Shown here piece after piece: positions 39,518 through 44,221 of a stretch of DNA of 51,099 bases (position 1 is the first letter of the stretch; each line of letters opens with the position of its first letter). The notes beneath the pieces are model-generated. The model made no database searches. It saw only the letters and a program-made list of their open reading frames with translations, and was not told the DNA's origin. Origin of the DNA: Anaerolineales bacterium (GTDB lineage: Bacteria > Chloroflexota > Anaerolineae > Anaerolineales > DRMV01); assembly GCA_027053355.1 (NCBI GenBank), contig JALUDX010000062.1, positions 1 to 51,099 of the forward strand, written 5' to 3'. A program made the position numbers and the translations under genes.

Positions 39518-39710
39518 GTTAAATCCTCATATCAATTGAATTATTCTTATCAAACTGCGCCGATTTTACCGCCAAGCGGGTGGGCTGTCAAGGATGCCTG
39601 TCTGGCGACGCACGGTTTGAGCCAAAACCCCCCACCCTTTGCCGGAGTGCGCTATAATACCCTTGGCGTCGCCCTTAGGGGCGGATCCCCCGTACAAACC
39701 AGGCCCTCTT
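39518..39710. promoter_or_regulatory. divergent promoter region between the regulator and rel
   Basis: An AT-rich patch (about 39530-39556, with ATATCAATTGAATTATTC) precedes the regulator on the minus strand, containing a -35-like TTGATA and several weak -10 candidates. It is also the natural place for an autoregulatory operator. For rel a clear TATAAT lies at 39653-39658 on the plus strand, without a good -35. Confidence 0.5.
39653..39658 (+). promoter_or_regulatory. -10 box of rel
   Basis: A perfect TATAAT 52 bases before the rel ATG. No TTGACA-like box is found 16-18 bases upstream, so activator dependence is possible but unproven. Confidence 0.45.
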
Positions 39711-41918
39711 ATGCAAATCGAACAACTTTTGGTGCACTTGCCTCCTTACTACACCTTGGCCGACAAAACCCTGGTGGAGCGCGCTTACCGCGTGGCCGAA
39801 AAGGCACACCAGGGGCAGAAGCGCGCCTCGGGCGAGCCTTACGTGCAGCATTGCCTTGCCGTGGCCGATATTTTGGCCGAATTGCGTATGCCCGCAGCCG
39901 TGGTGGCCGCGGGCCTTTTGCATGATACGGTGGAAGATACCGACGTCACCCTCGACGACCTGCGCCGCGATTTCGGCGAGGAAGTGGCCTCCCTGGTGGA
40001 TGGGGTGACCAAACTGGTCTCTTTGCCGCGGGTTTCGCGAGCCGACAACGCCCTGCAAGAGGAAGGGGGCCCTGCCGAGGACTTCCACGCGTCGGAGTGG
40101 GAACGCAAGCGCGCCCTGACCAACGAATCGCTGCGCAAAACCTTCTTAGCCATGAGCAAAGACGTGCGGGTGGTGATCATCAAACTGGCCGACCGCTTGC
40201 ACAACATGCGCACCCTCGCCCACCTGCCGCCCGAAAAGCAGCGCCGCATTGCTCAGCAGACCTTGGACATCTTCGCCCCCTTGGCCAACCGCCTGGGCAT
40301 CTGGCAGATCAAGTGGGAACTGGAAGACCTGGGGTTCCGCTACGTCAACCCTGAAGCCTACAAAGAGATTGCCAGCAAACTCGCAGAGCGCCGCACCGAG
40401 CGCGAAAAGGAACTTACTCGCGCCTCCGAACGCATCCGCGAAGTGCTGGCCGAGGCCGGCATCCAGGCCAAGGTGTACGGCCGCCCCAAACACATCTACT
40501 CCATCTATCGCAAAATGCAGCGCAAAGGCGTGCCCTTCGAGGCGTTGCGCGATGTGCGCGGGGTGCGGGTCATTGTAGACGACATCCCCACCTGCTATAC
40601 CGCGCTGGGGGTGGTGCACACCCACTGGAAACCCATCCCCGGCGAATTCGACGACTACATCGCCAACCCCAAGGACAATTCCTACCAGTCGTTGCACACC
40701 GCGGTGCTCTTCGAAGACCGCAAAGTGCTGGAGGTGCAAATCCGCACCCCCGAAATGCACCAGCGCGCCGAATACGGCGTGGCCGCCCACTGGCGTTACA
40801 AAGAGGGCGATAGCCACCTCGACGAAGATTTCGAGCGCAAGATCAACTGGCTGCGCCAACTGATGGAATGGCAGCAAGACGTCGCGGATGCCTCTGAGTT
40901 CCTGCAAGGCATGAAGACCGATTTCTTCGACGACCGGATCTACGTCTTCACCCCGCGCGGCGATATTTTAGACCTGCCCGTTGGCGCGACGCCCATCGAC
41001 TTTGCCTACCACATTCACACCGAAATCGGCCATCGCTGCCGGGGCGCCAAAGTCAACGGGAAACTGGTGCCGCTGAGTTACAAACTTCAGACCGGCGACC
41101 AGGTAGAAATTTTGACCGCACGGCGCGGTGGCCCCAGCCGCGATTGGCTCAACCCTCATCTCGGCCTGGTCAAAACCCAACGCGCCCGCGCCAAAATTCG
41201 CCAGTGGTTCAAGCGGCAGGCGCGCGAGCAAAACCTGACCCACGGCAAAGCCGTGTTGGAACGCGAATTCCGCCGCCTGGGACTGGAGGCTGTTGCTCTG
41301 GAGCCCCTGGCGCGCTATTTCAACTACCAAGCCGTCGACGATTTCTACGTGGCGGTGGGCTGTGGCGACCTTTCCCTGAACCGCATCGTCAACCGCTTGG
41401 CCGAAGTGGAGAAAGAAAAAGAGAAGCCTTACCTCACCGCGCACCCTCGTTCGGCAGAGAAAACGCCTCCCGAAGACGAGATCACCATCATGGGGCTGAA
41501 GGGGATGCTCATCCAGCGGGCGAAGTGCTGCAACCCCGCGCCGGGCGACCCCATCGTGGGCTACGTGACCCGGGGCCGCGGCGCGGTGATCCACCGGCAA
41601 GATTGCCCCAACATCCTGCGCGTGCGCGACAAAGGGCGGCTGGTGCAAGTTTCCTGGGGGGTGCCCACCCAGGCTTACACCGTGCCCGTGCGGGTGCAGG
41701 CTTACGACCGCGACGGTCTGATGAAAGACATCGCCGTGGTCATCGCCGACGAGGGCGTGAACATCGAAAACGTCAGCGTCAAAGTATCCGAAAAAACCGG
41801 TCTGGCGCTCATCAACCTGGTGCTGAGCGTGCGCGATATTGCCCAACTCAGCCGGGTGCTCAACCGGTTGGAAAACCTCCCCAACGTCTTGGAGGCTTTT
41901 CGTCAGCGCGCCGGCTAG
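39711..41918 (+). CDS. rel: RelA/SpoT family bifunctional (p)ppGpp synthetase/hydrolase
   Basis: It sets stringent-response alarmone levels. 735 aa, full-length Rel. The HD hydrolase domain has YVQHCLAVADIL and the HD pair in GLLHDTVEDT (His71-Asp72), followed by KLADRLHNMRTL; these suggest active hydrolase. The synthetase domain has YGRPKHIYSIYRKM, RDVRGVRVIVDD and KDNSYQSLHTAV with EVQIRT. TGS (about 385-450) has VFTPRGDILDLPVGATPIDFAY. A zinc-finger/conserved-Cys region holds AKCCNPAPGDPIVG and HRQDCPN. The C-terminal ACT domain ends the protein. ATG 39711 lacks a clear ribosome-binding site, but matches the family start. Confidence 0.95.
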   Translation: MQIEQLLVHLPPYYTLADKTLVERAYRVAEKAHQGQKRASGEPYVQHCLAVADILAELRMPAAVVAAGLLHDTVEDTDVTLDDLRRDFGEEVASLVDGVTKLVSLPRVSRADNALQEEGGPAEDFHASEWERKRALTNESLRKTFLAMSKDVRVVIIKLADRLHNMRTLAHLPPEKQRRIAQQTLDIFAPLANRLGIWQIKWELEDLGFRYVNPEAYKEIASKLAERRTEREKELTRASERIREVLAEAGIQAKVYGRPKHIYSIYRKMQRKGVPFEALRDVRGVRVIVDDIPTCYTALGVVHTHWKPIPGEFDDYIANPKDNSYQSLHTAVLFEDRKVLEVQIRTPEMHQRAEYGVAAHWRYKEGDSHLDEDFERKINWLRQLMEWQQDVADASEFLQGMKTDFFDDRIYVFTPRGDILDLPVGATPIDFAYHIHTEIGHRCRGAKVNGKLVPLSYKLQTGDQVEILTARRGGPSRDWLNPHLGLVKTQRARAKIRQWFKRQAREQNLTHGKAVLEREFRRLGLEAVALEPLARYFNYQAVDDFYVAVGCGDLSLNRIVNRLAEVEKEKEKPYLTAHPRSAEKTPPEDEITIMGLKGMLIQRAKCCNPAPGDPIVGYVTRGRGAVIHRQDCPNILRVRDKGRLVQVSWGVPTQAYTVPVRVQAYDRDGLMKDIAVVIADEGVNIENVSVKVSEKTGLALINLVLSVRDIAQLSRVLNRLENLPNVLEAFRQRAG

Positions 41919-41947
41919 CCCGGCTACTTTTTGGGTAGGAGGTCTCG

Positions 41948-42388
41948 ATGTCCTGGACACCCAGCAAGTCTTATTGGGCTTCGGTGGTTCTCACCGTGAT
42001 CGGCTTGCTCGACGCGGTTTACCTTTCGCTGCTCAAATTCACCCACCACGAAGCCATGTGCGCGGGCGTGGGCGATTGCTACACTGTCAATACCAGCCCT
42101 TACGCCCAGATCTACGGCATTCCCATCGCGCTGTTGGGTGCATTGGCCTATCTGGCGATTTTGGCCTTGCTGTTAGCCGAGCCGCGCCACCCCTTGGCCC
42201 GGTCATACGCGCCCTGGGGTGTTTTTGCCCTCACTTTCGCAGGCGTGCTCTATTCCGCCTATCTCACTTATCTGGAGGCTTACGTCATCCACGCCTTTTG
42301 CCCCTATTGTCTGCTTTCGGCCACGGTCTTGCTTTTTTTGCTCCTTTTGGCTATGATTCGCCTGCTCAACGAGCCGCCCGAGGCTTGA
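41948..42388 (+). CDS. vitamin K epoxide reductase (VKOR) family protein
   Basis: 146 aa with four or five membrane helices. It reduces quinone and oxidises thiols, driving extracytoplasmic disulfide formation in bacteria that lack DsbB. Conserved Cys38, Cys44 (AMCAGVGDCYTVNTS), the Ser/Thr with the adjacent segment, and the CxxC in HAFCPYCLLSA (Cys118, Cys121) are all present. No fused thioredoxin domain exists, so a separate DsbA-like partner is expected. AGGAGG precedes ATG 41948. The TlpA/CcdA reducing system lies 10 kb away. Confidence 0.92.
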   Translation: MSWTPSKSYWASVVLTVIGLLDAVYLSLLKFTHHEAMCAGVGDCYTVNTSPYAQIYGIPIALLGALAYLAILALLLAEPRHPLARSYAPWGVFALTFAGVLYSAYLTYLEAYVIHAFCPYCLLSATVLLFLLLLAMIRLLNEPPEA

Positions 42389-42715: not shown

Positions 42716-44221
42716 ATGCGCTATCGTGATTTGTTCGGGCAAACGCAACGGCAGGCGCCCCGCTTCCCAGCAGAAGACGGGCGTCATTGGCTGATGCGCG
42801 GCGGCTACCTCTACGAAGCCGCGGAAGGGGGGGTGTGGCTGCCCTTGGGGCAGCGTCTGCTGCAGAACCTGGCTGCGGTGCCCCAGGCCGAAGGGCTGCC
42901 GCAGACTTTGCCTTTGGGCTGGCCGCCTCCGCCGCTGCCCTGGCCGCGCACGCTGCCGCCTCTGCTGCAAAAACTGCTGGAGGCGCACGTCCACGCCTAC
43001 CGCCAACTGCCGCGGCTGCTCGCAGGCTGGCACGGCGACCGCTGGTATGCCCTGGCCGTAGATGAAAGCGCGGCTGCCGCCCGCGCCAGGCTGCACCCCT
43101 TTTGGGAACGCTGGCATCAAGCCCTGCACGAGGGCGGGGTAGTGCTTGCCGAAGCCGAAGCCGCCAGCGCCGCCGCGGTTCTTGCCTCCACCCAAAGCCG
43201 CGCCTCGGCCCAGGCGCTGGCCTGCCCCCGCTGCGGCTACCATGGCCTGCAGCCCTGGGCGCGGCGGCAAAAAAGCGCGCCCCCGGCCGAGCCCCTGCAA
43301 CCCCTCACCCCCGTGGCTACCCCCCAGGCCAACACCATCCGCAGCCTGGCGGAATTTTTGGGCGTGCCCGAAAGCCGTACCGCCAAAGCCGTTTTTCTGG
43401 AGACCGTAGGCGCGTCGCCGCGGCTGGTTTTTGCCGTGGTGCGGGGCGACATGCAGGTTTCACTGCCCAAACTCGCCCACTGCCTGGGCGTGCAAGGGCT
43501 GCGTCCGGCCTCGGAAGAAGCCATCCGCCGGGTGGGTGCGGTGCCGGGCTATGCCTCGCCTGTGGGGGTCAAGGGCGCGTGGGTGGTGGTCGACGATTTG
43601 ATCCCCCAAAGCCCCAACCTGGTGGCCGGAGCCAACCGCGAGGGCTACCATTTCACCGGCGTGAATTACGGCCGCGACTTTCAGGCCGACCTGGTGGCAG
43701 ACATCGTGGCCGCCGCGGCAGGCGACCCTTGCCCGCGCTGCGGCGCAGGGCTGGAAGCCCGCCCCGCGCACCCCATCCTGCACTGGCAGGCGTGGGAAGG
43801 CCCGCCCACCTACCTGGATGCTGCGGGCAAAGCCCGGCCTGTGGGCGTGGCCGCGCTGCTGTTGGACGGGTACGCCGCGCTGACCGCCTTGGCCGAGGCC
43901 AATCACGACCAGGCCGGGTTGGCTTGGCCCCCCGCGCTGGCGCCCTTTGCCGTTCACCTGATTGCCCTGCGCGGGGGCGAAGCCCAGGCCGAAAGCCTCT
44001 ACGCCGCGTTGCAGGAAGCGGGGATCCCCGTGTTGCTGGATGCCCGCAAAGCCAGCCCGGGCGTCAAGTTCGCGGACGCGGATTTGCTGGGCTTCCCCTG
44101 GCGGGTGACCGTGAGCAAGCGAAGCCTGGCGCAAGGCGGGGTAGAACTCAAACCGCGCCGCGGCGAGGCTCGCATTCTCCCGCCCGAGGCAGCGCTGGCT
44201 CGGCTGCGCAGCGCCCTCTGA
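42716..44221 (+). CDS. degenerate prolyl-tRNA synthetase paralogue (editing and anticodon domains kept)
   Basis: 501 aa versus about 570 for bacterial ProRS. The beginning follows ProRS (MRYRDLFGQT, then GGVWLPLGQRLLQNL and AYRQLPRLL). The stretch that should carry the TxE loop and motif 2 (THEE; FRDE...RPRFG...R.REF) is absent: AYRQLPRLLAG runs directly to WYALAVDES. The motif 3 GxGxxR is replaced by VGVAALLLDGYAAL, with no Arg. The INS/YbaK editing domain (about 202-335) is well kept: Lys224 in RTAKAVF, the GxxxP loop GYASP, and His312 in GYHFTGVNYGRDF. The C-terminal anticodon-binding domain (about 400-500: AWPPALAPF, DARKASPGVKFADADLLGFP) is also kept. It likely does not aminoacylate; tRNA-Pro proofreading is inferred. 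Confidence 0.8.
   Translation: MRYRDLFGQTQRQAPRFPAEDGRHWLMRGGYLYEAAEGGVWLPLGQRLLQNLAAVPQAEGLPQTLPLGWPPPPLPWPRTLPPLLQKLLEAHVHAYRQLPRLLAGWHGDRWYALAVDESAAAARARLHPFWERWHQALHEGGVVLAEAEAASAAAVLASTQSRASAQALACPRCGYHGLQPWARRQKSAPPAEPLQPLTPVATPQANTIRSLAEFLGVPESRTAKAVFLETVGASPRLVFAVVRGDMQVSLPKLAHCLGVQGLRPASEEAIRRVGAVPGYASPVGVKGAWVVVDDLIPQSPNLVAGANREGYHFTGVNYGRDFQADLVADIVAAAAGDPCPRCGAGLEARPAHPILHWQAWEGPPTYLDAAGKARPVGVAALLLDGYAALTALAEANHDQAGLAWPPALAPFAVHLIALRGGEAQAESLYAALQEAGIPVLLDARKASPGVKFADADLLGFPWRVTVSKRSLAQGGVELKPRRGEARILPPEAALARLRSAL

Follow-up and report, generated by a model that had tools for sequence, protein, structure and literature searches.

The window analysed here, a stretch of 51,099 nucleotides of DNA from an Anaerolineales bacterium, carries at 42716–44221 on the forward strand an open reading frame that encodes 501 residues and has no internal stop. 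It is interpreted here as an editing-only relative of the bacterial P-type prolyl-tRNA synthetase (ProRS), and the name ProRS-ed is proposed for it. The Pfam search of the 501-aa protein returned tRNA_edit at residues 202–317 (E 2e-23; 83.1 bits against a Pfam cut-off of 25.5) and HGTP_anticodon at residues 422–485 (E 2e-12), and the class II core domain tRNA-synt_2b was not matched anywhere in the protein. All three domains were matched in the intact relative L018. The solved structures nearest by sequence are those of bacterial ProRSs, and the score against the NCBIfam ProRS model PRK09194 was 209.9 bits, below the cut-off of 558.

From its N-terminus, the protein begins with a remnant of the motif 1 region (42716–42895, forward strand, as are all features below), in which conservation counts identify T10, R12, R28 and P43-L44. 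According to the same counts, this region is retained by most degenerate forms; motif 1 makes the dimer interface in class II synthetases. When aligned with intact relatives, the protein has neither a TxE loop nor motif 2: both are deleted or replaced, and at the corresponding position (42977–43069) HAYRQLP is followed by a short segment of unrelated sequence. The editing (INS, tRNA_edit) domain, delimited by Pfam and residue conservation, comprises residues 197–330 (43304–43705), with K224 at 43385–43387, the GYASP loop at 43547–43561 and H312 at 43649–43651. It is flanked in the alignment by two CxxC motifs, C170/C173 (43223–43234), which intact enzymes also have, and C339/C342 (43730–43741). 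Alignments and conservation counts place a remnant of motif 3 without the ATP-binding Arg at 43826–43891, where PVGVAALLLDGYAALTAL is found instead of the consensus GSYGIGxGR. The anticodon-binding domain (ABD) comprises residues 404–501 (43925–44218; HGTP_anticodon and residue conservation) and has nearly all of its conserved residues, except that it reads DAR where most relatives read DDR.

Only one of eight aminoacylation residues was scored as present in the window protein; it lies in a gappy stretch and is probably there by chance, since motif calls within deleted stretches depend on the alignment. From sequence alone, the protein is not expected to activate proline. In contrast to these losses, K224, D245, G278, P282, D293, N307 and H312 of the INS domain were invariant in an alignment of 63 sequences. 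The AlphaFold2 model built with 63 relatives as input was confident (pLDDT 94.6, pTM 0.90) and aligned end to end with Enterococcus faecalis ProRS (2j3l; Z 34.0, 488 residues, rmsd 4.8), which was also matched along the full length of the model by Foldseek (E 1.8e-43), indicating that the overall ProRS body was kept.

A sequence-only reading of this gene had described an end-to-end ProRS relative without TxE loop, motif 2 and motif 3 Arg, with Lys 224, GYASP and His 312 of the INS domain kept and the ABD intact, and had taken the losses for selective rather than random decay. The first claim was confirmed by the alignments, Pfam and the structure model, the second by the 63-sequence alignment, and the third apart from the DAR substitution; the selective character of the loss is strongly supported, as the same pattern recurs in 91 degenerate P-type proteins (see below). 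The reading erred in placing the gene three genes after rel. The order is rel, a VKOR-family gene and ProRS-ed, with the first two at 39639–42388, so that the gene is the second after rel. A relevance of this proximity is unsupported, because the order was found only within the same family.

All five congeners have the same degenerate protein, as do sister genera. Moreover, the scores of P-type ProRSs were split when 247 genomes of the class with a completeness of 90% or more were scanned, and the low-scoring genes were fetched for inclusion in an alignment of 218 P-type proteins. All eight aminoacylation residues examined were present in 127 of the 218, and the remaining 91 had between zero and six of them, none having seven. 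Some of those keeping six might still be active. At one extreme, the degenerate forms are full-length with point losses (e.g. L169, L173 and L175); others, such as that of the window, have deletions, and the shortest have about 400 aa. In the approximately 400-aa forms of one family (f12), most of the catalytic domain is gone except the N-terminal motif 1 region, and this minimal form was also predicted to fold confidently (pLDDT 94.0, pTM 0.87). One degenerate form (L076, none of the eight residues) belongs to the cultivated Levilinea saccharolytica KIBI-1, which also has an archaeal/eukaryotic-type (E-type) ProRS.

For counting INS residues, four fragments were dropped from the degenerate set and four archaeal members were added, again giving 91 proteins. 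The INS Lys, the Gly of GxxxP, and the Asp, Asn and His were present in 91 of 91, and the Pro of GxxxP in 88; position 245 was Glu in two. Additionally, the ABD residues D442, R444, G449, D456, G459 and P461 were found in 90 of 90 degenerate forms. Since the degenerate class was defined by its catalytic residues, their loss is built into these counts, but the conservation of the INS domain and ABD is not. Poor conservation of the INS residues in orthologues had been named beforehand as an outcome that would refute the editing interpretation, and the result came out in its favour. Also retained are I208, L211 and K224, the counterparts of I263, L266 and K279 of the alanine pocket of the Escherichia coli enzyme. 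Some exchange between Leu and Val occurs at position 211, as it does in intact enzymes. Both the losses and the retained residues are shown by the alignments.

The reverse situation was observed in family f57, where two full-length P-type ProRSs (L239 on G150:C5 and L250 on G234:C27) have all catalytic residues, with Ser for the Pro of GxxxP, Asp for the catalytic His and Lys for the Asn of GAN in the INS site. Judged on sequence, these two enzymes have probably lost editing, and their genomes also encode an E-type ProRS.

Comparison of the domains at matched divergence shows where constraint persists. In pairs with an INS identity of 0.50–0.55, identity in the catalytic region was 0.29 for degenerate pairs against 0.58 for intact pairs, and that of the ABD was 0.48 against 0.52. 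Between the window protein and its nearest congener, dN was 0.55 in the catalytic region, 0.14 in the INS domain and 0.22 in the ABD, and in most degenerate pairs catalytic dN exceeded INS dN. The dN/dS ratio was below 1 in every domain and every pair in which dS could be estimated, which shows purifying selection, although at divergences like that of the window protein and its congener dS approaches saturation and the ratios are rough. The constraint for aminoacylation is gone, and that for editing and tRNA reading is still in force.

A phylogeny of these proteins, proposed by the sequence-only reading as a check, was built from the INS and ABD columns of 101 proteins. Degenerate and intact forms were interleaved, with at least 20 changes of state (16–20 in the bootstrap trees), 10 of which were forced by supported branches. 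Under a strict definition of degenerate (no more than three of the eight residues), there were 16 changes (bootstrap 12–17), eight of them forced, and on a preliminary tree of 186 proteins 17 changes were counted, six of them forced. A single origin of the degenerate form was found in 0% of bootstrap trees. A single ancient editing-only paralogue was therefore rejected, and the independent recurrence of the degenerate state is shown. The direction from intact to degenerate is inferred, because a regain of deleted motifs is implausible.

The complete proS of the window's own genome (G000:C183) encodes an E-type (family I) ProRS of 478 aa, which scored 575 bits against a model cut-off of 437 and has no tRNA_edit domain in Pfam. 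No intact P-type proS was found in this genome. The expected second complete proS thus exists, an outcome in favour of the sequence-only reading, but it belongs to another type, and the pair are not two copies of one gene; the idea that a further intact P-type copy performs the housekeeping role was likewise rejected. The P-type gene has degenerated, and the E-type enzyme most likely does the charging. Two tRNAPro genes were found, with anticodons UGG and CGG, and both are of the bacterial type (C1:G72, A73), a kind of tRNAPro that bacterial E-type ProRSs charge (PMC12152171). In addition, the genome has three further INS-like genes, which resemble ProXp-x (L001), a distant ProXp-x relative (L002) and YbaK (L004). 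No ProXp-ala structure was among the matches of these three, and no ProXp-ala candidate was identified in the genome.

The association with an E-type enzyme extends across the class. An E-type ProRS was present in 68 of the 69 genomes with a degenerate P-type protein against 64 of the 129 with an intact one (Fisher p 1.4e-14, uncorrected for shared ancestry; for genes that were not fetched, intact is score-based), and this co-occurrence is shown. Two genomes with a degenerate form lacked an E-type ProRS, one in the sample (G256, 91% complete) and one outside it (G034, 96% complete); both are drafts, and the contig with the E-type gene may be missing. The 64 genomes holding both an E-type and an intact P-type ProRS indicate that gain of the former does not force loss of the latter. 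Five genomes (G296, G064, G174, G206 and G264) had only an E-type ProRS and no detected tRNA_edit domain, suggesting that Ala-tRNAPro editing is dispensable in some cases. Strict complementarity with ProXp-ala was not shown, given such E-type-only genomes without an INS gene, and the free-standing INS genes of E-type-only genomes were sorted only roughly, by similarity to YbaK or ProXp-x.

In many Anaerolineae, the genes for the E-type and the full-length P-type enzyme adjoin (G108:C70, G190:C19, G071:C814, G133:C99, G142:C58, G147:C108, G211:C88, G272:C138 and G297:C95). Such neighbours might be co-regulated or might have been acquired together.

The degenerate form is not confined to bacteria. 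A Heimdallarchaeota metagenome-assembled genome (L074) and four more genomes of its class, the Heimdallarchaeia of the Asgard archaea, among 58 searched, encode a degenerate P-type protein in which the INS signature is complete and the catalytic residues are gone. The five proteins form one clade (support 100/98) separate from the others, and at least a large fragment of an E-type ProRS was found in each of the five genomes. Stray contamination is unlikely, as a divergent clade is common to five metagenome-derived genomes. In L074, a gene recognised by eye as TnpB-like (IS200/IS605 type; 291–1574) lies directly upstream of the editing-only ProRS, and this could conceivably have been a vehicle of transfer.

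Considering these results, ProRS-ed is probably a P-type ProRS that has lost aminoacylation and survives as a trans-editor of Ala-tRNAPro, with its specificity for tRNAPro provided by the ABD. Trans-editing of tRNAPro, already suggested by the sequence-only reading, remains the best explanation, and it rests on sequence and predicted structure, without an assay. The hydrolytic activity, alanine as the substrate, the use of the anticodon and the dimeric state are all inferred, and there are no data on activity, expression or binding. In the proposed mechanism, the acquired archaeal-type ProRS, having no INS domain, would charge proline, would misload part of the tRNAPro with alanine and would then release the product. 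ProRS-ed would grip the mischarged tRNAPro through its anticodon domain (G35/G36), and its INS site would hydrolyse the mischarged aminoacyl-tRNAPro, most likely Ala-tRNAPro. Retention of the motif 1 region makes it probable that the protein works as a dimer. According to published work, the INS domain of ProRS cannot recognise tRNAPro unaided and relies for this on the ABD, which reads G35/G36, whereas ProXp-ala uses the acceptor stem (PMC3973320; PMC11295145). An INS domain freed of aminoacylation would therefore have to retain the ABD, as was observed. A bolder reading, towards which we lean with some reserve, is that enzymes displaced by a foreign synthetase have repeatedly become dedicated proofreaders with an anticodon reader of their own, in both bacteria and archaea. 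This would be a general route for separating aminoacylation from editing, down to a protein of about 400 aa with INS and anticodon domains.

Four alternatives were considered. The substrate might not be Ala-tRNAPro but, for example, tRNAPro carrying cysteine or a non-protein amino acid. INS relatives vary widely in substrate (PMC11295145), and the substrate cannot be given with certainty by sequence. However, the genome already has YbaK for cysteine and a ProXp-x relative, the alanine-pocket residues are retained and the genome yielded no ProXp-ala candidate, so that another substrate seems unlikely. It is similarly doubtful that the protein acts as an editing subunit in a stable complex with the E-type ProRS rather than freely in trans. 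This would fit the E-type enzyme in nearly all genomes with a degenerate form and the side-by-side E-type and full-length P-type genes of several genomes, and for E. coli YbaK complex formation with ProRS has been proposed as the source of its specificity (PMC3973320). However, the degenerate genes are mostly away from the E-type proS, and with an ABD of its own the protein requires no partner for specificity.

A tRNAPro-binding regulator or sensor, like HisZ or Gcn2, without hydrolysis and perhaps serving the stringent response via rel, is very unlikely. The ABD is intact, and rel, the VKOR gene and the ProRS-ed gene adjoin throughout the family, but an INS active site is needless for binding only, and yet its Lys, Gly, Asp, Asn and His are universal in the degenerate set and the domain is conserved as in working enzymes by identity and dN. 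The rel neighbourhood is absent outside the family, and a link to the stringent response through rel was rejected on this ground. Finally, a decaying gene heading for loss, as might be suspected from the degrading catalytic regions and from related genomes without any P-type proS, is hardly credible, because relatives of 50–60% identity have open frames, dN/dS is well below 1 in every domain, the INS domain and ABD are conserved as in working enzymes, independent origins led to the same outcome, the predicted fold is confident, and the marks of a pseudogene (broken frame, lost constraint) are not met.

Compared with known systems, the protein is an end-to-end homologue of bacterial P-type ProRSs with an INS domain (E. 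faecalis 2j3l, E. coli) and has their domain order, but the TxE loop, motif 2 and motif 3 residues are missing, and by these residues and the PRK09194 score it does not qualify as a functional P-type ProRS. Membership of the INS superfamily is met, with tRNA_edit above the cut-off and K224, G278-P282 and H312 present. ProXp-ala has a homologous INS domain and the same proposed reaction, but it is a single domain, a criterion that a 501-aa protein with its own ABD does not meet. YbaK, encoded in the same genome, is also a trans-editor of the superfamily; however, it is single-domain, acts on Cys and lacks intrinsic tRNA specificity (PMC3973320). Streptomyces bacteria likewise have an additional protein derived from ProRS, named ProRSx, but it is catalytically active, is paired with a special tRNA and puts proline at alanine codons (PMC9437257). 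INS-type trans-editors were described in a recent review as having a single domain (PMC11295145), and no earlier report of an editing-only ProRS was found in the open-licence literature searched. If the proposed function is true, a multi-domain, synthetase-derived INS editor would be an added class of trans-editor, and the annotation 'proline--tRNA ligase' in Anaerolineae would be affected. The family also constitutes a natural separation-of-function experiment, in which aminoacylation was removed many times and exactly the INS domain and ABD were kept, and the cultivated Levilinea strain makes the reading testable.

The closest analogue, after which ProRS-ed was named, is ThrRS-ed of some archaea, which is also synthetase-derived, combines editing and anticodon domains without aminoacylation and occurs beside an editing-less synthetase (PMC11295145, PMC7373986). 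This architecture is met here, with editing and anticodon domains lacking the aminoacylation residues and a separate editing-less ProRS in the genome. The ThrRS-ed family proper is not met, since its editing domain is DTD-like and derived from ThrRS, whereas that of ProRS-ed is the unrelated INS/tRNA_edit domain. Moreover, the partner of ThrRS-ed is a ThrRS stripped of editing, whereas that of ProRS-ed is a ProRS of a different type, and in ProRS-ed forms, unlike ThrRS-ed, the catalytic fold often persists without its residues.
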